Source of the DNA: Cladosporium sp. IMV 00045
Lineage: Eukaryota; Ascomycota; Dothideomycetes; Cladosporiales; Cladosporiaceae
DNA: 64,000 nt
Assembly: GCA_001931905.2 (NCBI GenBank)
Contig: MSJI02000708.1
Coordinates: forward strand, 15,746 to 79,745
Direction: 5' to 3'
Positions 2,575 through 37,023 of this stretch are shown one piece after another (position 1 is the stretch's first letter; each line of letters begins with the position of its first letter). A program made the translations under genes and the position numbers. The notes beneath the pieces were generated by a model that was not told where the DNA came from, made no database searches, and saw only the letters and a program-made list of their open reading frames with translations.

Positions 2575-2610
2575 TAGCTGAGAATGGTTTCGATCCATTG
2601 CCCTCCGGGT

Positions 2611-2630
2611 TGCTTCGGAGTGTTATTTCC
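2611..2630 (-). other. Canonical 37/38 tRNA intron (20 nt)
   Basis: This sequence lies between loop positions A37 (2631) and A38 (2610). Removing it restores a seven-base anticodon loop and a fully paired five-base-pair stem. The position is that used by the eukaryotic tRNA splicing endonuclease. Confidence 0.8.
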
Positions 2631-2641
2631 TATGAGCCCGG

Positions 2642-2724
2642 CTTTTTTTCGGATTAGTAATCATTCGCATGTTTCCATGTTCTCGATATCTTGGGAGATA
2701 TCAAGTTGGATGGTGTATGCTTAC
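2642..2724 (-). other. 83-nt GT-AG insert between tRNA positions 26 and 27
   Basis: On the tRNA strand it starts GTAAGCATAC, contains GATTACTAATCC about 15 nt before its end, and closes with AAAAAAAG. These are a 5' splice site, a branch-point-like box and a 3' splice site at normal fungal spacing and length. It also folds: GATATC-TCCCAA-GATATC with three flanking pairs (one G-T) makes a 9-bp hairpin, and CATG-GAAA-CATG makes a GNRA-capped hairpin. It lies between the A and B boxes of the Pol III promoter. The structure is seen; a spliceosomal nature is inference. Confidence 0.65.
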
Positions 2725-2749
2725 CGCGCTTCCGCTGCGCCACTCAGCT

Positions 2750-16108: not shown

Positions 16109-17358
16109 ATGGCAGGGCGCAGAGCATCAATGGCGCGCGGCCGGGGTGGCAACTCCATCCCCACTCAAGATACAACCATCGAGGAGCGCTTGACGCGCCT
16201 CGAGGAGAGAGGAGAGGAGATCAGAAGGGTGCAGCGTGAACTCGGGATTGGATCAAACGACATATGGCATGAGCTGTGTATGACACAGGAGGATTTGGCA
16301 AAGTCAAAGGCAGAAGTCGAGTATGGGGACCCCTAACCATTCTTGCCTCATGCGCAGTGAGCTAACACACTTTCAGGGCACTCAACAAGAAGCACGACGA
16401 GCTCAGGTAATGATCAAATCTTCCTATCACAACCCATGAGCGACACACTGACAAGGTTTACAGGGCACTCGTGGAGCGCGCAATAGCGGGAGGCAATGAG
16501 ACAAACAACAATCGCAGACGCTCTGATCTGTTGTCATTTCTTCCCGGCGAGCAGCTAGTCAATGACTCCGAGATCGACAATGGGCAGAAATCGGCCGAGC
16601 CTGCGCCGTCTGCACTGTCTGATATGATGGACGCGCTTGTCCCATCTTGGCCCAAAGATGGCCGTATGTCACCGCAGAAGCAGAAGCACCAGCAAGAAGA
16701 TCAACAGCCGCCGGATGACTCGCTACTACTTGCGCCCGACCTTCCAAAAAGCGCGCGTGTTTCCACTAGCATCGAGGATTCTGGCGTGCAGCAAGAGCAA
16801 CAGCAACAGCAACAGCCGCGTGTCGACTTTGCACCAGTGAACAGGAGGAAGAGTGTCCGATTCAAGAGCCCTGACGAAACCTTCCATGACCAGGCTCAGG
16901 GCGCCTCTACATCATTAGCTGCTCACCTGAGCTCTCCTGACCCTCTGAGCACTGCACTTCCACTTCGCCATTCAGCGACATCAACTCCCAAAGCTGCTGG
17001 CCCAAGTGCTGCTACAGCCACTCAGCAATCAAATAGATTGCAGCGAGCTCAGCGTGCTAGCAGAGGTGGAAGAAGTCTCACAGCGGCACTGGGCTTGGTC
17101 GAAAAGGGCGAGCTGAACGACGACGACAACAACAAGATCTCATACCCAGAGCTGACGACGAAGGCTCCACGCGACTCGCCCTATGTTTCGGTATCAGAAA
17201 AGGAGTCTTCGTCTGCTGCCATTGCTATACTCCATGCCGCAGAGGATAGCGATACTATTGCAGTTGCTCCGAGGAAGTCAACTCGGAAGCGTGTGACCAA
17301 GGATTTTGGAGATGTTGAGGTACATGGATGGCCAAAGAAGCAGAAGAGCGCGAAGTGA
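16109..17358 (+). CDS. Fast-evolving coiled-coil protein with PP1-docking-like motif, copy A
   Basis: Three exons (16109-16320, 16377-16406, 16464-17358) give 378 residues. I do not recognise the family. The N-terminus MAGRRASMARGRGGNS is basic. Residues about 22-90 look coiled coil (EERLTRLEERGEEIRRVQRE). NRRRSDLLSFLPGEQLV follows, then a long disordered part with poly-Gln. The best conserved spot is NRRKSVRFKSPDETFHDQ, containing KSVRF, a match to the RVxF docking motif for protein phosphatase 1. The C-terminus is basic (KKQKSAK), possibly nuclear. Copy B has the same exon plan but a very different coiled coil. Cell-cycle or chromatin adaptors with PP1 docking look like this, but a function is not established. 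Confidence 0.75.
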
Positions 17359-19761: not shown

Positions 19762-21025
19762 ATGGCAGGACGCAGAGCATCAACGGCACGTGGCCGTGGT
19801 GGCAACTCCATAACAACTCAAGATGCAAACATCGAAGAGCGCCTGGCGAGCCTCGAGGAAAGCAGCGCAGAAACCCAGCAACTCTGGGCTCAGCTGCAGA
19901 AGATGCAGGTAAATTTGACAAAGACACAGATGGATCTAGCAAAAACACAGACGGATCTGGAAAAGTCGAATGCAAAGGTCGGGTATGGGATCCCTCAACC
20001 ATTCTTGCTTTATGCGCAGTAAGCTAACACACTTTCAGAGCGCTGAATAAGAAATATGATGACCTTAAGTAATGATCAACCACCCTAGCACACTTTTGGT
20101 GCAACACACTGACATGATTCTTAGGGCAATGCTGGAGCGCACGACAGCGGGAGGCCATGATGCAGACAGCAACCGCAGACGTTCTGATCTGTTGTCGTTC
20201 CTGCCAGGCGAGCAGTTGGTGACTGACTACGAGGTCGACAATGGGCAGCAGCAGTCGGCACGTCCTCCGTCGTCCGCACTGTCTGATCTAATGGACGCAC
20301 TCGTTCCAGCGTGGCCCAAAGATGGCCGCATGTCGCCGCAGAGGGAGCAGCAGCAACAAGACCATCAGCCACTGAGACACTCACTGCTGATTGCGCCCGA
20401 GTTTCCAATGACTGCACGCATCTCTGCCAGTTTCAAGGAGTCCAACGTGCAGCAAGAGCAACTGCAACAGCACCAACCGCGCGTCGAGTCTGCGCCAAAG
20501 AACAGGAGGAAGAGCGTGCGTTTCAAGAGTCCTGACGAGACTTTCCACGATCAGGCTCAGGGCGCTTCCACATCGTTAGCTGCTCACCTGAGCTCTCCTG
20601 ATCCTCTGAGCAGTGCACTGCCACTTCGCAATTCAGCGACTTCAACTCCCAAAGCTGCTACCGCAAGTGCTGCCACTTCTACCAAACCATCAAACAGACT
20701 GCAGCGTGCTCGGCGCGCGAGCAGGGGAGGAAGACGTCTTACGGTAGCACTGGGCTTGGTCGAAAAGGGCGAGCTGAACGACGACGACGACAATAACAAC
20801 AACAATTACAAGATCTCATACCCAGATCTTACGACGAAGGCTCCACACGACTCGCCCTATGCGTCAGTGTCACAGCAGGAGTCTTCGTCTGCCATTGCTG
20901 TCCTTCAAGCCTCGGAGGATAGCGATACTATTGCGGTTGCTCCAAGAAAGTCGACAAGAAAGCGCGCATTGAAGGATTTTAGAGACGTGGAGGTTGGGTA
21001 TCCAAAGAAGAAGAGCGCAAAATGA
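19762..21025 (+). CDS. Fast-evolving coiled-coil protein with PP1-docking-like motif, copy B
   Basis: Three exons (19762-19982, 20039-20068, 20125-21025) give 383 residues with the same intron positions as copy A. The basic start MAGRRASTARGRGGNS, the NRRRSDLLSFLPGEQLV stretch and NRRKSVRFKSPDETFHDQ (RVxF-like KSVRF) are kept. The coiled coil differs: it has heptad-length repeats around KTQMDLAKTQTDLEKS (about 19915-19970) encoded by near-repeated 21-mers, whereas copy A has a single unit. Poly-Gln is replaced and a run of D/N (ELNDDDDNNNNN) is expanded. No family is recognised. A charged basic tail (KKKSAK) suggests a nuclear location. Confidence 0.75.
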
Positions 21026-21801: not shown

Positions 21802-24666
21802 ATGAATCACCATCTGGGCCCGGGCAGTCACTCCATGCCCTCGGCCATTCCCTACCACGAGCAGTCGCGCCGCCAGCAACAGTACCACAGCCACATGTAT
21901 GGCCCGCCGCCGCAGTCGCCCATCCACGCAAACCCTTACGCCTTCCACCATGGCCCGCCACCGCCCTTCTACCCGCAACAGCACCCTCAGCAATACCCGC
22001 GATGGCAGCCAATGTACAACCCGTACAGCCACATGCCGCCAATGCCGCAGCAGCAACCGCAGCATGTGCCTACCTACCCGCCGCGCTCGCCCATGGTCGT
22101 TTCCTCGCAGCCTCACATTCAGCCAGTGAATGCGCCGTCCATGACACCTCGACAAGCACCCATGCACACCCATCAGCCTCCGCAACCTCTCCAGCATACC
22201 CATGTAGCATCACACTCGCCTCGCCCGGTCTCTCAGCACATGTCTTCCTTCACGCACAACACTGTTGGCCTGCCTTCGCCGGCGCCAACCCCTCCTAAGC
22301 GCGAACAAACACCTCTCGAGCAGCTCCCGCAACAGCTGCCGGTCCAGGAAGATACTCGATCTATGTCCATTTCTGATACTGCTTCTGCTCCGTCTCGCCG
22401 TCAATCGACTACTGTCACGAACGTCCTTCTTCTGCCACCGGAGACCAGGACGCCTTTCTATCCTTCGGTAAGCATTGATTTCCATGAAAAGTAAGTAGTA
22501 GCACACGACTGACCAAGCATCACAGCTCCCATGGTACTCGCCTACTGCTACCGCTTCTGCCTTCCCGAGACGCGCAACCGCAAGGAGAAAGCGTCAAAAC
22601 CTCACCAAGTCGAACGACCAGGTTGCCCTGCCGCATCTTTCTCACGCATCCACCCAAGCACAGCAAACTCCCGAGCAAACATCGAGCAAAAAGACTGAAG
22701 AGCCTCCGTCGGAAACCTCAACTGTGGCTGCAACATCTGCGCGTGAGACACCTGCTACATCCCAGGCGCCTTCAGAAAGCGACTTCACCCAGGTCTCCAC
22801 ACCTATCACACCTGCTCAACCCAACGCATCCTCGCCCAAGTCTCAGCAACACGCTCGCAAAGACACAAGAACGGCCATTGCTATTCCCAACATTGGTGGT
22901 CTGCCAAAGGCCAAGGCAGCACCGTCGACCACTGAGAAGCAGACTCATCAGCCATCTGGTGAAGCTGTCACTTCTCAGCCTGAGCAAAAGCCAGCGGAGA
23001 GCGCTACCACAGAGAACACTGCACCGGCAGCCGAAGCACCTCAATCACCCCCTAAGCCTGCTGTTCCCAAGTCATGGGCGGACTTGGTTCGCCCGAACGA
23101 GGTCAAGACCGCGTCTGCCCCCAAAGTCAACGGCACGCCGGCCCCGAATGGCGTGCAGGGCGTCCCGAAGAGCGCGTCTCTTGCGGAAGCACTGAAGCAG
23201 CACTCTGTCACAAATGAACACCTTTCTTTCTTAGAGCCCAGAGGGCTGGTAAATACTGGAAACATGTGCTATATGAACTCTGTAGGTCCACGAGCCATGC
23301 ACATTCCTCGGATCTCACTAACATTCCGCAGATCCTTCAAGTTCTTGTATTCTGTACTCCTTTCTACGATTTCCTCGATCAGGTCCGCCAACGTACTGTT
23401 CACTCGATGAAGAGTCAGACTCCTCTCGTGGACGCCATGATCATGTTCATGAGAGAGTTCAAGGTTTTGGCCGATGGTGAGAGTGCGGAGAAGCTCAAGA
23501 AGCTCTTGAGACAAGAACAATTGGAGCAATATGGCGAGCCCATCACCCCTGAATACGTCTACGATGCCATTCGATCGCTGCCGCGCTTCCAGGGTATGAG
23601 GCGGGGACACCAGCAGGATGCCGAGGAGTTCCTTGGTTTCTTGCTCGAAGGTCTGCATGACGAATGCGTGGGCGTTATTCAGAACATGGCAAACGACAAG
23701 GCGAAGGCCGAGTCAGCAAATGGAGAAACTGAGAACGGAGACGGCTGGCTCGAAGTCGGTCCCAAGCAGAAATCTGCTGTCACTAGGACTGCCGGACAGG
23801 AAGACATCCCTTCTCCCATCACCAAGATCTTTGGTGGTCACCTGCGCTCCGAGCTTCGCGTGCCGGGCCAGAAGGATTCTGTCACGCTCGAGCCTTACAA
23901 GCCTCTTCAGCTCGACATCGGCTCTCCTCAGGTCAACAACATCGTCGATGCCCTCAAGGGATTGACTCACACTGAGGCTCTCACTGGCGACTTTGGCGGT
24001 CGTGGAAATGTCACTGCCAAAAAGCAGGTCTTCATTGACACCTTGCCTCCAGTACTCATCCTGCACCTGAAGCGCTTCCAATACGAGAACGCTTTGGGTG
24101 GAACTCAGAAGATCTGGAAGAAGGTCGGCTATCCCCTCGAATTGGAGATCCCGAAGGACGTCCTCCCGCCTTCCAAGCGTGGCGGCCTGGCTGTCAAGGG
24201 CGGCCTTCCCAAATACCGCCTCATCTCTGTTGTCTACCACCACGGCAAGTCCGCCGCTGGTGGCCACTACACAGTCGACGTCCTCCGTCAAGACTCCAGC
24301 GAATGGGTCCGCATGGACGACACGGTCATCCGTCGCGTACGCCCGCAAGACGTTGCAGAGGGTGGCGCCGAGGAAGACCCCAAGCTTCTCGCCAAGGCAC
24401 TGGAGCAGCACAAAAACGACGCAGACCTTCAGAAGCAACGTAACATGTACGAAGGTCTCGACGACGACGACCGGGAGCAAGAAGAAAAGCCCTGGTCCGA
24501 AGTCAACGGCAGCGCAACCAGCTCGGCCAAGAAGCTCGCCCAGCAGAGCAACGGCACCGCCACGCCGACCAGCACGGCCGGAAAGCGCACGCCTACGACG
24601 AGGCGCGAGGGTGTCAAGGATAACAAGGTCGCTTACATCCTGCTGTACGAGCGTATCCGATCCTGA
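21802..24666 (+). CDS. UBP3: Ubiquitin-specific protease, UBP3/USP10 type, copy B (complete)
   Basis: Three exons (21802-22467, 22526-23281, 23332-24666) give 918 residues. The first ~450 residues are Pro/Gln/Ser-rich and disordered. The USP catalytic domain begins with the Cys box GLVNTGNMCYMNS, interrupted by intron 2, continues with ILQVLVFCTPFYDFLDQV, and ends with the His box AAGGHYTVDV and a final VAYILLYERI. HLKRFQYEN is also typical. USP10/Ubp3 removes ubiquitin from cytoplasmic targets and acts in COPII coat recycling, ribophagy and stress responses. Copy A differs by a single residue in the whole 444-residue third exon (TPTT versus TPTA), despite many silent changes. The start is supported by identical 5' sequence in both copies. 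Confidence 0.92.
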
Positions 24667-26138
24667 AAGGATCCTGCGCCTAGACCACCAAATGAAGTGG
24701 AACTGAAAAGCAGACCGCACGCGTAGCTGGAAGTCGACCGAGCAAGCAGTAAGCAAAAGGCATGTCACCAATTTGACATTGCCAAAATAACTACGATTTG
24801 CCACGCCAGGGCACGCAACGTCTTTGGCTGAACCGAGAAGAAGCAAGAAGCAAGAAGAGAGAAGAAGGCGCCACCCAGCGCTGGTGGGGATGTGACTAAA
24901 TGAAAGACGACGGAGAGAACAGAGAATCAGGAAGAAAAGCAGGGTCGATTGCGGCCCCCAGCTAACATTTCTATCAACGACAAAAAGCCGACAGGGAGTG
25001 TGGCTGGTTAGGACGAATTTGGGTGCTGTAGAAGTTGTAGATAGAGAGAAACAGGTGTGCCACGATCTATGCCGGAGAGAGAGATCGAAGAAGAATGTAA
25101 AAATATCCTTTCACGACTACTGAGTACATGGAGATGAGACGATCAGATGATGATAACGACTATTCTTTGTCATAGTAGTGTATTAGTCGACATTTTTGAT
25201 CATTCCTCTTTTCATCAATTGAAAACAGCTTGCGTTATATATTTACAATGTATTATGTAGGCAGGCTCTGATGAGGCTTGATATGTCCTCATCCGACTTC
25301 CGAGTTCCGATCTGACTTCATCATTCCATACTACTGCAGTGGATCTGACGACCTCATCTTCAACGACAAATGTCCAAGAAATCGAAATGCCGTGAAGACT
25401 TACCGCAACTCATCCGCTATAACTACACTGCATCTGCGGGCTATTTCCGTCTATTCCCATAACACCTCGACTATACCAGTTTTAGTCACGTTCGTCACAC
25501 CTCTCTGTCCTCTTTACTTCCCCGCTTCGAGCTCATCTCAGCTCCACTTCAGAAAGTCCCACGCCGTCCGTGTAAAGCCGAAGCCTTCCTACCTGAGCCA
25601 CGGCATGATCGGAACAGCTCCCTCTGCCCTTGACTCCGTGGCCTATTGCTGGTGCATAGTCATTAGTGAAGTATCTGGGAGAGACCATCCGCGCACCCAA
25701 GCCCCCGAAGCTGGCTCTGGCCCTGGCCCTCGAAGTATCCACGCGTACCACATGCCCTCGCCTTTCTGCCAATGGTGGGTCTTGCGTTTTCCGTGACCAC
25801 TTCTTACGATCTGCGTGTCTCTATGTGAACCCTTTCTCTCGCTCTATTCCGCGCTGGACTTAGTCAGCTTGCTCTATTTCTTCCGAGCAGTAACATCACC
25901 TCTTCCTGCTTCTATATATCCTTTCGTGAAAGGACTCGTTCTTTGTCTTGTGTTGTCATAACATACCTGTTGATTACTACTCTAACACACCCAGTCGGAC
26001 ACTCTCCTCCTCGTCCTATACTCCATCAAGGACTTCTTCATTTCCCCGCCTCCACACCAGAACCATCTACGTTTCCGTCCCGGCAAGAGCGACAACAATA
26101 GTTCCAGCGACGTCAAAAGCCCTTCGCCACCCGCCACA
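24667..26138. other. Intergenic region, copy B, with a conserved island
   Basis: A 1.47-kb region between UBP3 and the dioxygenase. The first ~400 bp matches the UBP3 3' UTR of copy A. Then there is diverged AT-rich DNA, and at 25623-25852 a ~230-bp island that is nearly identical in both copies (separate entry). The last 200 bp are CT-rich dioxygenase leader. Confidence 0.45.
25623..25852. other. Highly conserved ~230-bp island upstream of the dioxygenase (copy B)
   Basis: By eye only two substitutions separate this segment from 34065-34294 in copy A (at about 25749 and 25825), while flanking intergenic DNA is much more diverged. Reading frames stay open on both strands in both copies, for example MKYLGETIRAPKPPKLALAL on plus. 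I recognise no protein, tRNA, 5S or snRNA. It could be a small coding exon, an ncRNA or a regulatory element. Confidence 0.5.
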
Positions 26139-27282
26139 ATGTCCCTGCAACCCGACGAAACGCTCAACCTCGTCCCGGACTCCTCGGGGCCAAGCGTGGC
26201 TGCCAACGGAGGAGGGGCCTCCTCTTCGACAACGAAGGCTTCGAGGTTCAACCCCAAGTTCACCGACGCCGTAATCGCCGCCACAGGCCCCAAAGCGAAT
26301 CCCAGGCTGGCGCAGGTCATGCCGAGCTTGCTGAAGCATCTGCACGATTTCGCGAGGGAGAATGAGATTACGGTCGATGAGTGGATTGCTGCTGTTAATA
26401 TGGTGAGATTTCTTGTTGGCTTTCTTTTTTGGTCTTGTTGAAAGTTGGATCGTGCTGATGTGATTTGTTGTGAGTGATAGGTCAATGAGGCCGGACGCAT
26501 GTCGGATGAGAAACGTAATGAGGGCCAGCTCCTGCAGGATATCCTGGGTATGGAAACGCTCGTGGATGAGATTACTTATACCCTTGCCAATGAGGCGCAG
26601 GACCAACCTACCGCCACTGCTGTGAGTATCTTGACTTCCTCTTCTCTCAACACAAGCCCCCAGAAGGCAACACTGACAGCGTCCTTAGATCCTCGGCCCC
26701 TTTTGGCGACACGGCGCCCCCAAACGCTCTCTCGGCGACTCCATCGTCGACAAAGACCAAGGCGGCGACAAGACGCACATGCACGGCCAAGTCACCGACT
26801 TCACGACCGGCCAACCCATCGCCAACGCCGAAATCGACGTCTGGCACACGGCGCCCAACGGCCTGTACGAGCAGCAAGACGCCTCTCAACCAGACATGAA
26901 CCTCCGCGGCCGCTTCTACACAGACTCCCAAGGCAAGTACAACTTCTACTGCCTACGCCCAACCTCCTACCCAATCCCCGACGACGGACCGGCGGGTAAA
27001 TTGCTCGGCCTCCTCGACCGCCACCCTATGCGACCGGCGCATATTCACTTCATCATCTCGGCCGAGGGGTATAAGCCTATCGTCACGCAGATTTTCGACA
27101 GGAGGGATAAGCATATCACGGACGATTCGGTTTTTGCGGTCAAGGATAGTTTGGTTGTGGATTTTGAGCCGTTGGAGGGGGATCCAAAGGCACAGTTTGA
27201 TCTGCCATATGATTTCAAACTGGCAAGTTTTGAGGAGGCGAGGAAGAGTGGGATGAAGGGCGCTACGGAGGTTGCGCCTTGA
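26139..27282 (+). CDS. Intradiol ring-cleavage dioxygenase (catechol/hydroxyquinol 1,2-type), copy B
   Basis: Three exons (26139-26402, 26481-26621, 26689-27282) give 332 residues. After an N-terminal helical domain (VNEAGRMSDEKRNEGQLLQD) comes ILGPFWRHGAP and then the non-heme Fe(III) site. The ligands are Tyr in HTAPNGLYEQQD, Tyr in RPTSYPIPDDGPAGK, and the two His of RPAHIHFIIS. These enzymes open catechol or hydroxyquinol rings between the hydroxyls, feeding the beta-ketoadipate route. The SYPIPDDGP...RHPMRPAHIHF spacing resembles hydroxyquinol 1,2-dioxygenases more than classical catechol enzymes, but substrate is inference. There is no signal peptide, so it is intracellular. It is convergent with the Gal80-like gene (189 bp between stops), an arrangement kept in copy A. 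Confidence 0.9.
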
Positions 27283-27471
27283 GCTTGAGGAGGGTAGGAA
27301 AGGGGTTGGTGGGAAGTTGTTCTTGTGAGTCCTTGTTGAGAAGGGTTTGGTTTTCTGTGAGTTGGAAAGGAGGGAATGTTCAAAATCGATTCATCATTTG
27401 GCGCTCTTCTTTAGATTGCAAGCAAATCATGTATGACAAGACGCTCTCGTAGGCCATATCAAACACCCTTC

Positions 27472-28572
27472 CTACGAGCAAACCACCCTTCTCCCAATCC
27501 TATCACTCTCATAAACCGCCTCAACCCAAGCATGCCTCTTCACCGCCAACTTCCAATCCGCAACCCCCTCTCCATCCGCAAAAGCCTCGTAACCCCTCCC
27601 AACATTCCCCGGCGGGCCCGGCCTGTCATCCCCAACCTCCACAAACCTCACCTCCCCCGTCTCCAAATCGTGCACTCGCACCTCCACCTCCGCGACCGAC
27701 ATGCTGACAGAAAACGCATGCTTACTCCGCACGTCCAGAACCCCTTTCTCGCCTTCCACGCGCCACACGAGACCGGGCTCTTCGTTCAGCGGACCCCGCC
27801 CGAGCACGAGAGCGGTGCTCGGCACGCCGTTGGCCAGTAGGCCGGAGGTCGCGATGCGGTCTGCCGCTGTGCGCTGGATGGTTCTGACGACCTTGCCCTC
27901 GGCAGATTTGATCGCCACGTCAGGCCGCTGCACGGAAAGCGTGGCGCTCACGCTCTCCTGCTCGCCGAGCACAGTGCTGATGCTATCGTGCAAGTGGCCG
28001 AAAGGGATGGTCAGGACGTTGCCCCCGTACTCGACGAGGTTGAGGTACTCCAAGTGCTCCGGCGCTTCGGCGGTTGCGATCCCAGTGGCGAGCTCGACAT
28101 GGCTGCTGAGCACTTTGCCGATGGCGTTGGAGGCTAGCAATTCCTTGATTCGTGCAATGGCGGGGTGGAAGCGTCCCTGGAAACCAACGATGGTGCGCAC
28201 GCCTTTGCGCTCGGCGAGCTCGAGGAGTTCCGTGGCTTGCTGCAAGTTTGACGCGAGCGGCCATTCGACGAAGCAGTCCTTGCCCGCTTCCAGGGCGGGT
28301 TTGAGGGAGGCGTAGTGTCTGTCTACGCGCGTGCTGACGACGACGAGGTCGATGTCGGGGGAGGCTGCGAGGTCGGCGACGGAGCCGTAGGGTTTTGTCG
28401 TGGTTGGTGAGAGGGCGTGGGCGGAGATGGCGGCGGTGGAGGAGGCGAGTGTGGAGTTGCACACGCCGGTGATTTGGTATTTGGGAGAGGATGTGAGGTA
28501 GGGCAGGTGGGCTGTTACGGCCCAGGAGGATGTTGCTGAGAGGCCGACGATGCCGACGCGGATGGGAGGCAT
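27472..28572 (-). CDS. Gal80-like Gfo/Idh/MocA family oxidoreductase, copy B
   Basis: Single exon of 366 residues starting MPPIRVGIVGLSATSSWAVT. The Rossmann dinucleotide-binding N-terminus (VGIVGLSATSSWA), LVVVSTRVDRHYASLKPALE and DCFVEWPLASN (normally EKP in catalytic members) follow the Gal80-like subgroup, in which the catalytic Lys of the EKP motif is replaced by Trp (EWP). Family members bind NAD(P); Gal80 itself is a regulator without enzymatic activity. In filamentous fungi the role is unknown. It faces the dioxygenase tail to tail in both copies. A longer upstream frame exists, but the ATG at 28572 begins the conserved domain directly. Confidence 0.85.
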   Translation of the reverse strand: MPPIRVGIVGLSATSSWAVTAHLPYLTSSPKYQITGVCNSTLASSTAAISAHALSPTTTKPYGSVADLAASPDIDLVVVSTRVDRHYASLKPALEAGKDCFVEWPLASNLQQATELLELAERKGVRTIVGFQGRFHPAIARIKELLASNAIGKVLSSHVELATGIATAEAPEHLEYLNLVEYGGNVLTIPFGHLHDSISTVLGEQESVSATLSVQRPDVAIKSAEGKVVRTIQRTAADRIATSGLLANGVPSTALVLGRGPLNEEPGLVWRVEGEKGVLDVRSKHAFSVSMSVAEVEVRVHDLETGEVRFVEVGDDRPGPPGNVGRGYEAFADGEGVADWKLAVKRHAWVEAVYESDRIGRRVVCS

Positions 28573-29968
28573 GACTGTCTTACTTCTTGTGTTCTTTCTT
28601 TTCGAATTGTTTTGCTTGGTTGGACGGGTCGATGGTTTATTGAACCTCGTTGGATGGTCGCTTGTAAAACAAAATGAGAATGTCGATAATCTCGTCGAGC
28701 GATGCGCGCCCTGTAACCCCAATGTTAGATGTCTCGTCTACCGGTAGATGATTGTTGCGGCATATAGGATTAGCCAACGAAGTTTCCTCTTCGAACAATA
28801 TGTATATCATTCATATGTGGATTTGTAATTGCATAATTACTGGATTAGGTAATTTTGTGCAGTCGTCAGGAAGCGGAGTCGTCTTTGCTTTCGCGGGCTC
28901 CGAAGAATCCAAACTTCGCGTACATTTGTGCACATGCGATGATACTTTCATAAAACGTGATTAGCAAAGCTCAACTTAGGGCATGTTTCGATTTTAGAAT
29001 GGATTTCTATCGTCGAGTTAGGATCAATCGACGTTTTCACGAGTCCTCTCGGGCTTTGCGTTTCGCAAACTCTGGCGTAACGACCCGTTGTCTGGCGTGA
29101 TTCAGTGATTTGGTGATTAGATGTAGAATCGAAGAGTCGAGTCGACGTCCAACGATTGCGTTCAATTTCATCACGAGACTTGTGCTTCTGTCAACCATAA
29201 AATGTCTTGCTTCTGTGGTCTGCAACTAAGTTGCATACACGGTGCAAAGAAGGCGAAACTGACAGACATCCAACAGTCGTCAAAGCACCAAACGTCTCAA
29301 GAGAAGCTCGAATACCGTGGCCCATTGACATTGCGAGGACTTAGTAAGCCTTCGAAGTCTGAACCTTTCGGCGTAAAGATGGCCTTGAATTCAACTCTAT
29401 TCGGTATGTCGATGAGAAGCTGGCTCCACTGAGATATGTTTGTGAGATAGCGCAACAGAAAGGGAGGGTTGGCCTCGGATTTGGTTTTGCGTATTGCTCG
29501 AAGAGTACAGTCTCCCATGTTCTGTTGAGGTCATGGTCATCGTGGCCAGGAGCAGTAACTTGGTGGCGGTGTGCGGGTTCCCTACGTCTTTGATATTTTT
29601 CTCTGATGCATGAAATTCATGTTACGACCTTAGTCTCTGACTGCGTCTTGAATTGGACCCTGATCGTCTCAAGGTGATGGTACCATTTATAAAGGGAAAT
29701 CAACAACAAAAAGTCTCTCATTCTCCATCTTGCGGTTTTCCGACATGGACATCTTGGAGGTAGGTAGGTGAAGAGGAATCGTAGTCTCGCTGTGAATGCG
29801 GTATGGGATGAAAAGAAAATAGTAAACTTGAACGCTAGATCATCATGGAAAACAACAATAAACCCGCCTTTTGAAAACCGTACGTCACCAAGAATGCACT
29901 TTACCTCTCGGTCTGTACGGCCTGGACGGACCGTAAATCAGCCAGTCTTCGTCGCTGTCTTGATCTGG
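28573..29968. other. Intergenic region, copy B; homology to copy A ends near 29189
   Basis: About 1.4 kb. The part to about 29189 matches 37024-37626 of copy A imperfectly, with many small indels in AT-rich sequence. Beyond that the two copies share nothing I can see. No gene is supported in this stretch; short frames are broken between copies. Confidence 0.45.
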
Positions 29969-30396
29969 TCACCAAGCGTTACGGTCCCAATTCGGGTCTA
30001 GTATCATGCAGTCAGCAAAACCTACCCTCAACATAGACAGGAAAAACCAAGAGAAAAGAAAAACATCAAGATCTCACCCTGCACAAAACCACCCAAAACC
30101 CTACTCCCCGTCTGCAACAGCGGGTGTCCCACGACGATCTTGAGGAAGCGCTCCAGCCCCCTGCGCCTCTCCTCTATCACGCTGTCGTCGAAGCGGTTGA
30201 GGTAGACCTTGCCCGGCAGCGTGGGGATGGAGACGCGCGCGCTCTCGCGCTCCAGCAGGTCGCGGAAGACCTCAAAGTCCGAGTAGCGCCGGCGCACTTC
30301 GGAGCGGCGCAGCTTGAACGCCGGGATGTTGGTCGACAGCCGGATGAGGTAGGTCGTGTAGCGGCTTGAGGGCGAGGCGGTCGGTTGGTGTGTTTG
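29969..30396 (-). CDS. SNX3: SNX3/Grd19 sorting nexin, 5' part lost at assembly gap
   Basis: Two exons are visible: 30396-30078 (open at its 5' side into the N gap) and 29997-29969. They join as [12 protein letters not shown] and stop. The PX domain is unmistakable: [78 protein letters not shown]3/Grd19 binds PI3P on endosomes and works with retromer to recycle cargo to the Golgi. Roughly the last 115 residues are present and the N-terminus is missing. No second copy of SNX3 occurs in the window, although its neighbours are duplicated. Confidence 0.9.
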
Positions 30397-30416
30397 NNNN
30401 NNNNNNNNNNNNNNNN
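30397..30416. other. Assembly gap, 20 N
   Basis: Exactly 20 N. The left flank is SNX3 of segment B on the minus strand; the right flank is UBP3 exon 1 on the plus strand, corresponding to position 21950 of copy B. The two flanks are unrelated, so this join is not supported by sequence. Confidence 0.98.
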
Positions 30417-33133
30417 ATGGCCCGCCACCGCCCTTCTACCCGCAACAGCACCCTCAGCAATACCCACGATGGCAGCCAATGTACAACCCATACAGCCACA
30501 TGCCGCCAATGCCGCAGCAGCAACCGCAGCATGTGCCTACCTACCCGCCGCGCTCGCCCATGGTCGTTTCCTCGCAGCCTCACATCCAGCCAGTGAATGC
30601 GCCGTCCATGACACCTCGACAAGCACCCATGCACACCCATCAACCTCCGCAACCGCTTCAGCATACCCATGTAGCATCACACTCGCCTCGCCCGGTCTCT
30701 CAGCACATGTCTTCCTTCACGCACAACACTGTTGGCCTGCCTTCGCCGGCGCCAACCCCTCCTAAGCGCGAACAAACACCCCTTGAGCAGCTCCCGCAAC
30801 AGCTGCCTGTCCAGGAAGATACTCGATCGATGTCCATTTCTGATACTGCTTCTGCTCCGTCTCGCCGTCAATCGACTACTGTCACGAACGTTCTTCTTCT
30901 GCCACCGGAGACCAGGACGCCTTTCTATCCTTCGGTAAGCATTGATTTCCATGAAAAGTAAGTAGTAGCACCGGACTGACTCGGCATCACAGCTCCCATG
31001 GTACTCGCCTACTGCTACCGCTTCCGCCTTCCCGAGACGCGCAACCGCAAGGAGAAAGCGTCAAAGTCTTACCAAGTCGAACGATCAGGTCGCCCTGCCG
31101 CATCTTTCACACGCATCCACTCAAGCACAACAAACTCCCGAGCAAACATCGAGCAAAAAGACTGAAGAGCCTGCGTCGGAAACCTCAACTGTGGCTGCAA
31201 CATCTGCGCGTGAGACACCTGCTACATCCCAGGCGCCTTCTGAAAGCGACTTCACCCAGGTATCCACACCGACCACACCTGCTCAACCCAACGCATCCTC
31301 GCCCAAGTCTCAGCAACACGCTCGCAAGGACACAAGAACTGCTATTGCTGTCCCCAACATTGGTGGGTTGCCGAAGGCCAAGGCAGCACCGTCGACCACT
31401 AAGAAGCAGACTCAGCAGCCATCTGGCGAAGCTGTCGCTGCTCAGCCTGAGCAAAAGCCAGCGGAGAACGCTACCACCGAGACCACTGCACCGGCAGCCG
31501 AAGTCCCTCAATCACCCCCTAAGCCTGCTGTGCCCAAATCATGGGCGGACTTGGTTCGCCCGAACGAGGTCAAGACTGCATCTGCCCCCAAATTCAACGG
31601 CACGCCGGCCCCGAATGGCGTGCAGGGCGTCCCCAAGAGCGCGTCTCTTGCGGAAGCACTGAAGCAGCACTCTGTCACAAATGAACACCTGTCTTTCTTA
31701 GAGCCCAGAGGGCTGGTAAATACTGGAAACATGTGCTATATGAACTCTGTAAGTCAACGAGACATGGTCATTTCTCGGATCTCACTAATATCCCGCAGAT
31801 CCTTCAAGTTCTTGTATTCTGTACCCCTTTCTACGATTTCCTTGATCAGGTCCGCCAACGCACTGTTCACTCGATGAAGAGTCAGACTCCTCTCGTGGAC
31901 GCTATGATCATGTTTATGAGGGAGTTCAAGGTTCTGGCTGATGGCGAGAGTGCGGAAAAGCTCAAGAAGCTCTTGAGACAAGAACAATTGGAGCAATATG
32001 GCGAGCCCATCACCCCTGAGTACGTCTACGATGCCATTCGATCGTTGCCGCGCTTCCAGGGTATGAGGCGGGGACACCAGCAAGACGCCGAGGAGTTCCT
32101 TGGTTTTCTACTCGAAGGTCTGCATGACGAATGCGTGGGCGTCATTCAGAACATGGCAAACGACAAGGCGAAGGCCGAGTCAGCAAATGGAGAAACTGAG
32201 AACGGGGATGGCTGGCTCGAAGTCGGTCCCAAGCAGAAATCTGCTGTCACTAGGACTGCCGGACAAGAAGACATCCCTTCTCCCATCACCAAGATCTTTG
32301 GTGGTCACCTGCGCTCAGAGCTTCGCGTGCCGGGCCAGAAGGATTCTGTCACGCTCGAGCCTTACAAGCCTCTTCAACTCGACATCGGCTCTCCGCAAGT
32401 CAACAACATTGTCGATGCCCTCAAGGGATTGACCCACACTGAGGCTCTCACTGGTGACTTTGGTGGCCGTGGAAACGTCACTGCTAAGAAGCAGGTCTTC
32501 ATTGACACCTTGCCTCCAGTGCTCATCCTGCACCTGAAGCGTTTCCAATACGAGAACGCTTTGGGTGGAACTCAGAAGATTTGGAAGAAGGTTGGCTATC
32601 CGCTCGAACTGGAGATCCCGAAGGATGTCCTCCCACCTTCCAAGCGTGGCGGCCTGGCTGTCAAGGGAGGTCTCCCCAAGTACCGCCTCATCTCTGTTGT
32701 CTACCACCACGGCAAGTCTGCCGCTGGCGGCCACTACACAGTCGACGTCCTCCGTCAAGACTCCAGCGAATGGGTCCGCATGGACGACACAGTCATCCGC
32801 CGCGTGCGCCCTCAAGACGTCGCGGAGGGTGGCGCCGAGGAAGACCCTAAGCTTCTCGCCAAGGCACTGGAGCAGCACAAGAACGACGCAGACCTTCAGA
32901 AGCAACGCAACATGTACGAAGGTCTCGACGACGATGACCGGGAGCAAGAAGAAAAGCCCTGGTCCGAAGTCAACGGCAGCGCCACCAGCTCGGCCAAGAA
33001 GCTCGCTCAGCAGAGCAACGGCACCGCCACGCCGACCAGCACGGCTGGAAAGCGCACGCCTACGGCGAGGCGCGAGGGTGTCAAGGACAACAAGGTCGCT
33101 TACATCCTGCTGTACGAGCGTATTCGATCCTGA
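30417..33133 (+). CDS. UBP3: Ubiquitin-specific protease, UBP3/USP10 type, copy A, main part
   Basis: Continuation of the fragment at 18125-18201. Exons are 30417-30934 (starting at the second base of the codon for His in HGPPPPFYPQQ), 30993-31748 and 31799-33133. The Cys box GLVNTGNMCYMNS and His box AAGGHYTVDV are both intact, so the enzyme should be active once the 71-bp gap is filled. Exon 1-2 differences from copy B are mostly conservative (for example KKQTQQ versus EKQTHQ, and KFNG versus KVNG). Exon 3 differs at one residue. Function is as for copy B. Confidence 0.9.
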
Positions 33134-34584
33134 AAGGATACTGCGCCTGGACCACTGGAAGAAGTGGAACTGAAAAGCAGACCGCACGCGTAGCTGGAAG
33201 TCAACCGAGCAAGCATCAAATAAAGGCATGTCACCAGTCTGACATTGCCAAAATACCTACAATCTGCCACGCCAGGGCACTCAACGTCTTTGGCCGAATC
33301 GAGAAGAAAGAAGAAAGAAGAAAGCGCCACGCAGCGCTGGTGGGGATGTGACTGAACGGAAGACGGAGAGAACAGAGAATCAGGAAGAACAGCAGGGTCG
33401 ATTGCGGCCCCCAGCTAACATTTCTATCAACGACAAAAAGCCGACAGGGAGTGTGGCTGGCCAGGAAGAATTTGGGTGCTGTAGAAGTTGTAGATAGAGA
33501 GAAACAGGTGTGCCGCGATCTATGCCGGAGAGAGAGATCGAAGATGAATGTAAAAATATCCTTTCACGACTACTGAGTACATGGAGATGAGACGATCAGA
33601 TGCCTGGGTAACGATTATGATTATCTTTGATGTAGTGTATTAGTCATCATTCTCACTGTTTTGAATCAAAGGCAGCTTGCGTTTTATTTATATTTACAAG
33701 TATATCATGTAGGCAGCCTGATGAGGCTTGATATGTCCTCACCCGACTTCCGAGTTCCGATCCGACCTCATGATTCCATACTACTGCTGTGGATCTGACG
33801 ACCTCATCTTTTAACACTTGTCCAAGGAATCGAAATGCCGTGAAGAGCTACCGCAATTTCTCACCATTACTACCTTACTAGCTACTCGCTCGTTTGCGGC
33901 CCATTTCCGCCTATTATTCCCATTCGTAACCAAGAGAGTCACCATCGTCACACACTCTGTCCTCTTTACTTCCCCGCTTCGAGCTCGTCTCAGCTCCACT
34001 TCAGCGAACACGCTGCCCGTAAAGCCGAAGCCTTCGTGGTCATGGCATGATCAAAACAGCTCCGTCTGCCCTTGACTCCGTGGCCTATTGCTGGTGCATA
34101 GTCATTAGTGAAGTATCTGGGAGAGACCATCCGCGCACCCAAGCCCCCGAAGCTGGCTCTGGCCCTGGCCCTCGAAGTATCCACGCGTACTACATGCCCT
34201 CGCCTTTCTGCCAATGGTGGGTCTTGCGTTTTCCGTGACCACTTCTTACGATCTGCGTGTCTCTATATGAACCCTTTCTCTCGCTCTATTCCGCACTGCT
34301 TTTAGTCAGCTTGCTCTGTTTCTTCCGAGCAGTAACATCGCCGCTTTACTGTTGCTCTCTGCCGTCTTTGTGGAAGGACTTGTACTTCCGTCTTGTCCTG
34401 TCATAAAATACCTATTGATCTATCTCTCTAACACACCCAGTCGGACACTTTCCTCCTCGTCCTATACTCCATCAAAGACTTCTTCATCTCCCCGCCTCCA
34501 AACCAGAACCATCTACGTTTCCGTCCCGGCAAAAGCGACAACAATAGTTCCAGCGACGTCAAAAGCCCCTCGCCGCCCGCCACA
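33134..34584. other. Intergenic region, copy A, with a conserved island
   Basis: A 1.45-kb region corresponding to 24667-26138. Its outer parts match UBP3 3' UTR and dioxygenase leader, and the middle is diverged apart from the island at 34065-34294. No gene is recognised. Confidence 0.45.
34065..34294. other. Highly conserved ~230-bp island upstream of the dioxygenase (copy A)
   Basis: Counterpart of 25623-25852, with two substitutions by eye. It lies about 290-520 bp upstream of the dioxygenase ATG in both copies. Confidence 0.5.
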
Positions 34585-35733
34585 ATGTCTCTGCAACCCG
34601 ATGAAACGCTCAACCTCGTCCCGGACTCTTCGGGGCCAAGCGTGGCTGCCAACGGAGGAGTGGCCTCTTCCTCTTCGACAACGAAGGCTCCGAGGTTCAA
34701 CCCCAAGTTCACCGATGCCGTAATCGCTGCCACAGGCCCCAAAGCGAACCCCAGGCTGGCGCAGGTCATGCCTAGCTTGTTGAGGCATTTGCACGATTTT
34801 GCGAGGGAGAATGAGATCACGGTTGATGAGTGGATTGCTGCTGTTAATTTGGTGAGCATGTCTTGTCCAAGTTTCTTTTGGGTTTTGTTTAAGGTTGGGT
34901 TGGGCTAATGTGATTTGATGTGAGTTATAGGTGAATGAAGCTGGACGCATGTCGGATGAAAAACGCAATGAGGGCCAGCTCCTGCAGGATATCCTGGGCA
35001 TGGAAACGCTGGTGGATGAGATTACTTATACGCTTGCCAATGAGGCGCAGGACCAACCTACCGCCACTGCTGTAAGTTTCTTGACTTCCTCTTCTCCCAG
35101 CACAAGTCCCAGACGGGACAACTAATAAACGCCTCCCAGATCCTCGGCCCCTTCTGGCGACACGGCGCCCCCAAACGCTCTCTCGGCGACTCCATCGTCG
35201 ACAAAGACCAAGGCGGCGACACGACACACATGCACGGCCAAGTCACAGACTTCACGACTGGCCAACCCATCGCCAACGCCGAAATCGACGTCTGGCACAC
35301 GGCGCCCAACGGCCTGTACGAGCAACAAGACGACACTCAACCAGACATGAACCTCCGCGGCCGCTTCTACACTGACTCCCAAGGCAAGTACAATTTCTAC
35401 TGCCTGCGCCCAACCTCTTACCCAATCCCCGACGACGGACCGGCGGGTAAATTGCTCGGCCTCCTCGATCGCCACCCCATGCGACCGGCGCATATCCATT
35501 TCATCATCTCGGCCGAGGGGTATAAGCCTATCGTCACGCAGATTTTCGACAGGACGGACAAGCATATTACGGACGATTCGGTTTTTGCGGTCAAGGATAG
35601 TTTGGTTGTGGATTTCAAGCCGCTGGAGGGGAATGAGAAGGCCAAGTTTGACCTGCCGTATGATTTCAAGTTGGCGAGTTTTGAGGAGGCTAGGAGGAGT
35701 GGGATGAAGGGCGCTACGGAGGTTGCGCCTTGA
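34585..35733 (+). CDS. Intradiol ring-cleavage dioxygenase, copy A
   Basis: Three exons (34585-34851, 34931-35071, 35140-35733) give 333 residues, with the same phases as copy B. All four iron ligands are kept (Tyr in NGLYEQQD, Tyr in SYPIPDDGP, His-x-His in RPAHIHF). Differences from copy B are about a dozen scattered residues, mostly on the N-terminus and surface (QQDDTQ versus QQDASQ, FDRTDKH versus FDRRDKH, KPLEGNEKAK versus EPLEGDPKAQ). Both copies therefore look functional, under weaker constraint than UBP3. Confidence 0.9.
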
Positions 35734-35916
35734 TGGGTGAAGAAGAGAGGAAGGGGGTTGATAGGTAATTGTTCTTGTGTTGTTGAGGAGAGATAGGTTT
35801 TCCACGAGTTGGAAAGTAGGGAAATGTTGATGATCGATTCATTTGGTTCTCTTCTTTGGATTTCTCGCAAATCATGTATGAAACGACGCTCTCGTAGGGC
35901 ATATCAAACACCCTTC

Positions 35917-37023
35917 CTACGAGCAAACCACCCTTTTTCCACTCCTGTCACTCTCATAAACGGCCTCAACCCAAGCATGCCTCTTCACCGCCAACTTCCA
36001 ATCCGCAACCCCCTCTCCATCCGCAAAAGCCTCATAAACCCTCCCAACATTCCCCGGCGGGCCCGGCCTGTCATCCCCAACCTCCACAAGCCTCACCTCC
36101 CCCGTCTCCAAATCGTGCACTCGCACCTCAACCTCCGCGACCGACATGCTGACAGCGAACGCATGCTTGCTCCGCACATCTATGACCCCCTTCCCGCCTT
36201 CCACGCGCCACACGAGCCCGGGCTCGTCTTTCAGCGGGCCCCGCCCATGCACGAGAGCGGTGCTTGGCACGCCGTTGGCCAGAAGGCCGGAGATCGCGAT
36301 GCGGTCTGCCGCCGTGCGCTGGATGGTTCTGAAGACGGTGCCGTCGGCCGATTTGATCGCCACGTCGGGCCGCTGCACGGAAAGCGTGGCGCTCACGCTC
36401 TCCTGCTCGCCGAGCACGGTGCTCATGCTATCGTGCAAGTGGCCGAAGGGGATGGTGAGGACGTTGCCCCCGTACTCGACCAGGTTGAGGTACTCCAGGT
36501 GCTCCGGCGCTTCGGCGGTGGCGATTCCGGCGGCGAGTTCGACGTGGCTGCTGAGCACTTTGCCGATGGCATTGGAGTCTAGCAGATCCTTGATGCGTGC
36601 AATGGCGGGGTGAAAGCGTCCTTGCAAACCGACGAAGGTTCGCACACCCTTGCGCTCGGCGAGCTCGAGGAGTTCCGTGGCTTGCTGCAAATTCGACGCC
36701 AGTGGCCATTCGACGAAGCAGTCTTTGCCCGCTTCAAGGGCAGGTTTCAAAGAGGCGTAGTGTCTGTCCACGCGCGTGCTGACGACGACGAGGTCGATGT
36801 CGGGGGAGGCTGCGAGGTCGGCGACGGAGCCGTAGGGTTTTGTCGTGGTTGGTGAGAGGGCGTGGGCGGCGATGGCGGCGGTGGAGGAGGTGAGGGTGGA
36901 GTTGCACACGCCCGTGATTTGGTATTTGGGAGAGGATTTGAGGTAGGGAAGGTGGGCTGTTACAGCCCAGGAGGAGGTGGCTGAGAGGCCGATGATGCCG
37001 ACGCGGATGGGAGCCATGTTCAT
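35917..37023 (-). CDS. Gal80-like Gfo/Idh/MocA family oxidoreductase, copy A
   Basis: Single exon of 368 residues from MNMAPIRVG, or 366 if the second ATG (37017) is used, which aligns with the start of copy B. It has the Rossmann fold VGIIGLSATSSWA and the same EWPLASN motif in place of the EKP of catalytic members. It is convergent with dioxygenase copy A (183 bp between stops). No frameshift is seen, so both copies appear intact. Confidence 0.85.
   Translation of the reverse strand: MNMAPIRVGIIGLSATSSWAVTAHLPYLKSSPKYQITGVCNSTLTSSTAAIAAHALSPTTTKPYGSVADLAASPDIDLVVVSTRVDRHYASLKPALEAGKDCFVEWPLASNLQQATELLELAERKGVRTFVGLQGRFHPAIARIKDLLDSNAIGKVLSSHVELAAGIATAEAPEHLEYLNLVEYGGNVLTIPFGHLHDSMSTVLGEQESVSATLSVQRPDVAIKSADGTVFRTIQRTAADRIAISGLLANGVPSTALVHGRGPLKDEPGLVWRVEGGKGVIDVRSKHAFAVSMSVAEVEVRVHDLETGEVRLVEVGDDRPGPPGNVGRVYEAFADGEGVADWKLAVKRHAWVEAVYESDRSGKRVVCS

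Follow-up and report, generated by a model that had tools for sequence, protein, structure and literature searches.

Can a nuclear tRNA gene carry an intron of the kind that the spliceosome removes from mRNA? tRNA splicing is regarded as a world apart from mRNA splicing, each having enzymes and substrates of its own, and the question is raised by an initiator tRNA-Met (iMet) gene in a 64,000-nucleotide stretch of DNA from Cladosporium sp. IMV 00045 (the window, meaning the whole stretch analysed), in which an 83-nt insert with GT and AG ends stands beside a canonical tRNA intron. The available parts of two sources describe mRNA-type introns in fungal U6 genes (PMC10484740, PMC5832005), and the same portion of the U3 survey states that, among small structured RNAs, frequent interruption by an intron is known for U3 and U6 alone (PMC5832005). 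In the literature searched, mRNA-type introns were found for fungal U6 and U3 and no precedent in a nuclear tRNA, most subscription papers, which could hold one, being outside this scope; the string "spliceosom" is absent from the available text of a review of tRNA introns (PMC4090602). As judged from sequence comparison, the 83-nt insert is probably a spliceosomal (mRNA-type, GT-AG) intron inside an iMet gene of RNA polymerase III (Pol III), the precursor of which would need two splicing machineries.

Structure of the focal gene

The gene for initiator tRNA-Met(CAU) occupies 175 nt at 2575-2749 of the minus strand, to which all its features given below belong, and includes two inserts. Exon 1 (2725-2749, tRNA positions 1-26) is followed by the 83-nt insert (2642-2724) at 26/27, then by exon 2 (2631-2641; 11 nt, positions 27-37, the anticodon included), by the second insert of 20 nt (2611-2630) and by exon 3 (2575-2610, 36 nt). 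The 20-mer lies at 37/38, the canonical position of a tRNA intron, and the 83-mer does not. Exons 1 and 3 are identical across the five insert-bearing copies described below (M1-M5), exon 2 is identical across M1-M3, and the 20-nt intron is identical in M2. Box A (2732-2742) starts at gene position 8 and lies entirely inside exon 1, box B, GGATCGAAACC (2586-2596), starts at gene position 154, and a run of seven T 3' of the gene (2566-2572) is the predicted Pol III terminator; both boxes and this terminator are intact, as the first-pass annotation had it.

When both inserts are cut out, the remaining 72 nt are called tRNA-Met(CAT) by ARAGORN, which bears out the earlier description of an iMet gene with an 83-nt GT-AG insert and a 20-nt canonical intron. 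The full 175-nt gene receives no tRNA call, while removal of the 83-mer alone gives a misread Ala(CGC) and removal of the 20-mer alone a misread Gly(GCC). Features of the joined 72-mer that fit an initiator are A1:T72 at its ends, three G:C pairs next to the anticodon loop, and A54/A60. Over the window, ARAGORN made no call at the focal locus, and an Rfam scan gave no match there, nor did 2400-2900 yield one when E values as high as 1 were admitted; as ARAGORN is also blank at the unspliced tRNA-Leu gene discussed below, tRNA finders can miss such genes and similar cases may hide elsewhere.

The element CATCATC is found upstream of the gene at 2770-2776, and related CATCA/TCATC motifs stand at a similar distance in M2-M5. 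Of 104 distinct tRNA upstream regions of the assembly, 13 have TCATCA in the interval -45 to -8, most commonly at -23/-24; it is possibly a Pol III start element. Elsewhere in the window, 21950-36138 contains a direct duplication with a spacing of about 8.45 kb (98, 96 and 94% identity in three 300-nt stretches), within which lie near-identical 466-aa open reading frames at 23266-24666 and 31733-33133; a second, older direct duplication (16673-16972 and 20334-20633) is 79% identical at a spacing of 3661.

Initiator tRNA genes of the assembly

The search covered the window's own assembly (G000; 49.87 Mb, 954 contigs) and gave iMet matches at eight loci, in agreement with pattern searches, which found the 3' half eight times without a mismatch and the 5' half six times with at most one, and which would miss strongly diverged copies. 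Six of the loci are intact, and five of these six carry an mRNA-type insert; the canonical 37/38 intron is present in the same five copies and absent from the other three loci. The focal copy, M1 (L001, contig C705), has inserts of 83 nt at 26/27 and 20 nt at 37/38, M2 (L002, C745) of 69 nt at 26/27 and 20 nt, M3 (L003, C594) of 58 nt at 26/27 and 17 nt, M4 (L004, C272) of 56 nt at 23/24 and 12 nt, and M5 (L005, C908) of 56 nt at 23/24 and 10 nt. M7 (L007, C174) is a clean, intact 72-nt gene with a T-run and no inserts. M6 (L006, C454) and M8 (L008, C102) have 71 nt, no inserts and an altered D arm (CAGCAAAAGGCGCC vs CAGCGGAAGCGCGCC of the intact gene) in which GG18-19 is lost; the two agree at every one of 9,968 bases and may represent a single locus that entered the assembly twice. 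The focal insert is therefore no lone oddity. The first-pass annotation had named several intact iMet genes elsewhere, with no reads across the 26/27 junction of this one, as an argument against its own reading, and one intact intronless gene (M7) does exist, but the other four intact ones carry inserts.

As to the history of the family, the 23/24 and 26/27 sites are 3 nt apart, so that, speculatively, one intron slid or two were gained. In M6 the sequence AAAAG/GCGCC resembles the 3' border of the M4/M5 insert; it could, again speculatively, be a remnant of imprecise intron loss, and two transitions with a 1-nt deletion explain it equally. Just as speculatively, reverse transcription of a fully spliced tRNA could have produced M7, which has neither kind of intron.

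Age and conservation of the copies

The 10-kb neighbourhoods of the copies (7.5 kb for M4) pair up at 90.5 and 91.9% identity for M2/M3, 87.1% for M4/M5 and 91.9% for M6/M7. The compared regions are two-fold, with 8-13% divergence, as might be met with in a hybrid or a diploid; for the region of M1, contig C493 matches only query positions 1-645 and ends 355 bases past the match. Since both members of M2/M3 and of M4/M5 carry the insert, it predates the divergence of each pair. In all five insert-bearing copies the joined exons give the same 72-mer (72/72), and a simple power law gives all 72 nt a probability of staying unchanged of about 8e-4 in M2/M3 (90.5% identity) and about 4e-5 in M4/M5 (87%). 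Gene conversion from M7 would be an unlikely cause of this identity, because the inter-intron exon of 11-14 nt is unchanged while the introns that flank it differ. Between the M4 and M5 inserts there are differences at 5 of 56 sites, all outside GTAAGT, CTAAC and AG, and the inserts of M1-M3 have the block CGAATGATTACTAATCCGA in common and little else alike besides the 5' end.

Splice signals of the inserts

The 83-mer starts with GTAAGC (2719-2724), carries TTACTAAT, whose branch A lies 12 nt before the 3' end (motif TACTAAT at 2653-2659, predicted branch A 2654, within the block common to M1-M3) and ends with AAG (2642-2644); the GTAAGC start, the TACTAAT near the end and the terminal AG reported at first pass are thus all present. 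From M1 to M5 the 5' splice sites are GTAAGC, GTATGT, GTATGT, GTAAGT and GTAAGT, the branch sites ACTAAT in M1-M3 and ACTAAC in M4 and M5, and the distances from the branch A to the insert end 12, 12, 12, 11 and 11 nt. The GT and AG ends are flush with intact exons in all five iMet inserts and in the tRNA-Leu insert described below, as in U2-type introns. According to the available part of the fungal U3 survey (PMC5832005), the introns there have a GTRWGT 5' site, an RCTRAY branch site 6-36 nt before the acceptor and a YAG acceptor in all cases but one. GTRWGT is matched by four of the five iMet inserts and by Leu, the last base of the focal GTAAGC being off; RCTRAY is present at such a distance in all five iMet inserts, and CCTAAC of Leu lacks the purine. 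The acceptor departs from YAG, being AAG in M1, M3, M4, M5 and Leu and TAG in M2 only. In composition-matched shuffles the joint chance of GTRWGY, terminal AG and CTRAY near the end was 1.7e-6 to 2.5e-6 for M1, M3, M4 and Leu, a figure to be taken as indicative because the motif was set after the inserts had been seen.

The introns of mRNA used for comparison were five, placed by Cladosporium proteins, with four in a phosphotransferase gene (91% identical to C. halotolerans) and one in a beta-adaptin gene (96% identical to Cladosporium sp. NU13). The acceptor is YAG in all five and in the U6 intron of the same genome. TTTT occurs in none of seven inserts (five iMet, Leu, U6) vs four of the five mRNA introns, numbers that are small and partly come from related copies. 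An AAG acceptor with an A-rich tail was seen in five of the six tRNA inserts (L001-L005, L088), and such a tail would avoid the T-runs at which Pol III transcription ends. Collection of mRNA introns by means of joined open frames was rejected as a source, since GT..AG gave 99 clusters where three pairs of decoy dinucleotides gave 106, 101 and 90.

Similar inserts in U6 and tRNA-Leu(CAA)

With 47 of 2,535 candidates scored, a single U6 match exceeded the cut-off. It is on the minus strand of contig C83 (L051, G000:C83:41000-42200) and carries a 59-nt mRNA-type intron, GTAAGT..GCTAAC..CAG: GGTCAATTTGA is followed by GTAAGT...CGCTAACCAACTTCTGCAG and directly by AACAATACAGAG. A spliced Pol III transcript is therefore expected in this cell. 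The U6 intron also contains a box-A-like TTAGCCCAGTGGC.

The second tRNA gene with such an insert is a split tRNA-Leu(CAA) (L088, C488:48425-48648), in which GGTGGCCGA is followed by GTAAGT...TTCCTAACATTCTCAAAG and then by GTGGTTATGG. After removal of the 55-nt GTAAGT..CTAAC..AG insert, ARAGORN calls a tRNA-Leu(CAA) with a 32-nt canonical intron, and it makes no call on the unspliced gene. The insert site, 14/15, presumably falls in box A, which the first bases of the intron would nearly rebuild. The assembly yielded neither a further copy of L088 nor a partner region for it.

The wider frequency of such inserts was sampled at 132 loci with a box B, which comprise 42 of the 51 GGTTCGAATCC matches (the other 9 were already among the tRNAs previously covered) and 90 of the 188 GGTTCGABTCC matches (100 were taken up, less 9 previously covered and 1 located at a contig end). 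tRNAs were called by ARAGORN at 91 of the 132 loci (82/120 and 9/12), and a few of the calls look misassigned; besides these 91, one locus, the split Leu, has an mRNA-type insert. Two tRNA isotypes and U6 thus carry such inserts, and most sampled tRNAs do not. Two odd calls were noted, a tRNA-Ser(CGA) with a 69-nt intron that includes a T-arm-like stretch (L043, G000:C717:16200-17000) and a tRNA-Leu(CAA) call that places a 90-nt intron at position 41 and is not clearly a tRNA (L156, G000:C444:351-568). For DNA of relatives, two exact-pattern scans of viral contigs gave 0 matches.

Alternative explanations

The strongest counter-argument to splicing of the inserts is M7, which is intact, has no inserts and could supply the initiator tRNA alone. 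The insert-bearing genes would then be silent or non-productive and their inserts old disruptions, an account that is judged unlikely; its basis is the 72-nt sequence and the T-run of M7, together with the statement, in the available part of the tRNA-intron review, that eukaryotic tRNA genes with short insertions in the D or T arm are for the most part presumed to be pseudogenes (PMC4090602). Silent disruptions should decay, however, and the iMet copies are undecayed: the decayed exons or promoters of a tRNA pseudogene are not seen, the exons being 72/72 in five copies, the inter-intron exon included, at the low chances of no change given above, while the splice motifs are kept and box A, box B and the T-runs are intact. 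The suggestion at first pass of a disrupted copy is disfavoured accordingly. There would be no reason for mRNA splice motifs to persist if the insert were instead a non-canonical tRNA intron and the tRNA splicing endonuclease cut it out. Non-canonical tRNA introns at 22/23, 25/26 and other sites are described for Archaea, nucleomorphs and Cyanidioschyzon in the available text of the review (PMC4090602). In a coarse test for the bulge-helix-bulge motif, the iMet inserts formed 1, 1, 1, 1 and 2 of 4 central pairs vs 3 of 4 in four canonical introns, although this control stayed below 4 and the Leu insert also reached 3; cleavage by the endonuclease is held to be very improbable.

That an introner-like mobile element placed a copy of itself in the gene, with splicing signals of its own, is the least likely of the accounts considered. 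Introner-like elements are reported in Dothideomycetes (PMC4457414, from its available part), and the focal 83-mer does fold stably; yet the fold is a single nested, interrupted stem-loop (-17.5 kcal/mol, z -4.99) rather than the two strong hairpins originally described, and none of the five further inserts that were folded shows it (z -1.40 to -0.05). Hairpins conserved across the inserts were accordingly rejected, the focal one alone of six being significant. A search of the assembly (49.9 Mb) for a recurrence of the 83-mer, as had been proposed, returned only its match to itself at a low sensitivity that also missed the related L002 and L003 inserts, and the presence of the insert in both members of M2/M3 and M4/M5 makes it older than their divergence. 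At that sensitivity, the resemblance to introner-like elements that had been pointed out gains no support as a sign of origin.

The reading of the iMet inserts as spliceosomal introns is favoured because they occur in five of the six intact genes and at two sites, because the joined exons are identical in all five despite surroundings that diverge by 8-13% (M2/M3, M4/M5), because GT, CTAAY with the branch A 11-12 nt from the end and AG fall in the fungal ranges of the available survey text (PMC5832005), and because the M4/M5 differences spare the splice signals, U6 has an intron, a Leu gene is split and TTTT is absent. It is weakened by the AAG acceptors in four of the five iMet inserts and in Leu, by the GTAAGC of M1 in place of GTRWGT, and by the single such insert (Leu) besides 91 ARAGORN calls among the sampled box-B tRNAs. 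On the whole, the earlier proposal of an mRNA-type and a canonical tRNA intron within one iMet gene has been strengthened.

Proposed maturation and relation to known introns

With box A, box B and the T-run intact, Pol III would read from the leader through all three exons and the two introns as far as the T-run. A U2-type spliceosome would recognise the 26/27 insert as a short intron and remove it, and the tRNA endonuclease and ligase would take out the 20-nt intron at 37/38. Once the exons were joined, the D arm would be whole again and positions 26 and 27 contiguous, and the spliced product would work as an initiator.

The closest likeness is to the U6 introns of fission yeast and other fungi, where a short GT-AG intron with a branch site also interrupts a Pol III gene for a structured RNA, as in the U6 of this genome; unlike them, the host here is a tRNA that also bears a canonical tRNA intron. 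Reverse splicing near the catalytic nucleotides is the origin proposed for U6 introns (PMC10484740). Fungal U3 snoRNA introns are similar in being normal GT-AG introns of a small structured RNA that vary between the copies of one genome, as the accessible survey text has it (PMC5832005), but their host is no tRNA and their acceptors are YAG in all but one, whereas the iMet and Leu inserts mostly have AAG. The 20-nt insert is like the canonical eukaryotic tRNA introns at 37/38, and the 83-nt insert at 26/27 with mRNA motifs is unlike them. The non-canonical tRNA introns of Archaea, nucleomorphs and Cyanidioschyzon resemble it in lying in the D-arm region, sometimes with two introns per gene; however, the review, in its available part, ties them to a bulge-helix-bulge or to an unknown excision (PMC4090602), and that motif was not evident in the iMet inserts by the coarse test. 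The introner-like elements of Dothideomycetes share with the focal insert that they are introns of related fungi and that a stem-loop is present, and differ in that the low-sensitivity search turned up the 83-mer just once and the other inserts lack the stem-loop.

Implications

A broader reading of these sequences, tentative and somewhat doubtful as a whole, is that nuclear tRNA genes of this lineage may host spliceosomal introns, so that most iMet genes and a Leu(CAA) gene would need both the spliceosome and the tRNA endonuclease. The inserts would form a class adapted to Pol III (no T-runs, an A-rich tail, AAG), copies such as L007 would come from spliced tRNA, and initiation would be coupled to spliceosome activity. 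If the inserts are spliced, the initiator tRNA carries both kinds of intron, the spliceosome works on a compact Pol III tRNA precursor, the capacity for protein synthesis is tied to that of the spliceosome, and a handle is gained on the invasion of non-coding RNAs by spliceosomal introns.
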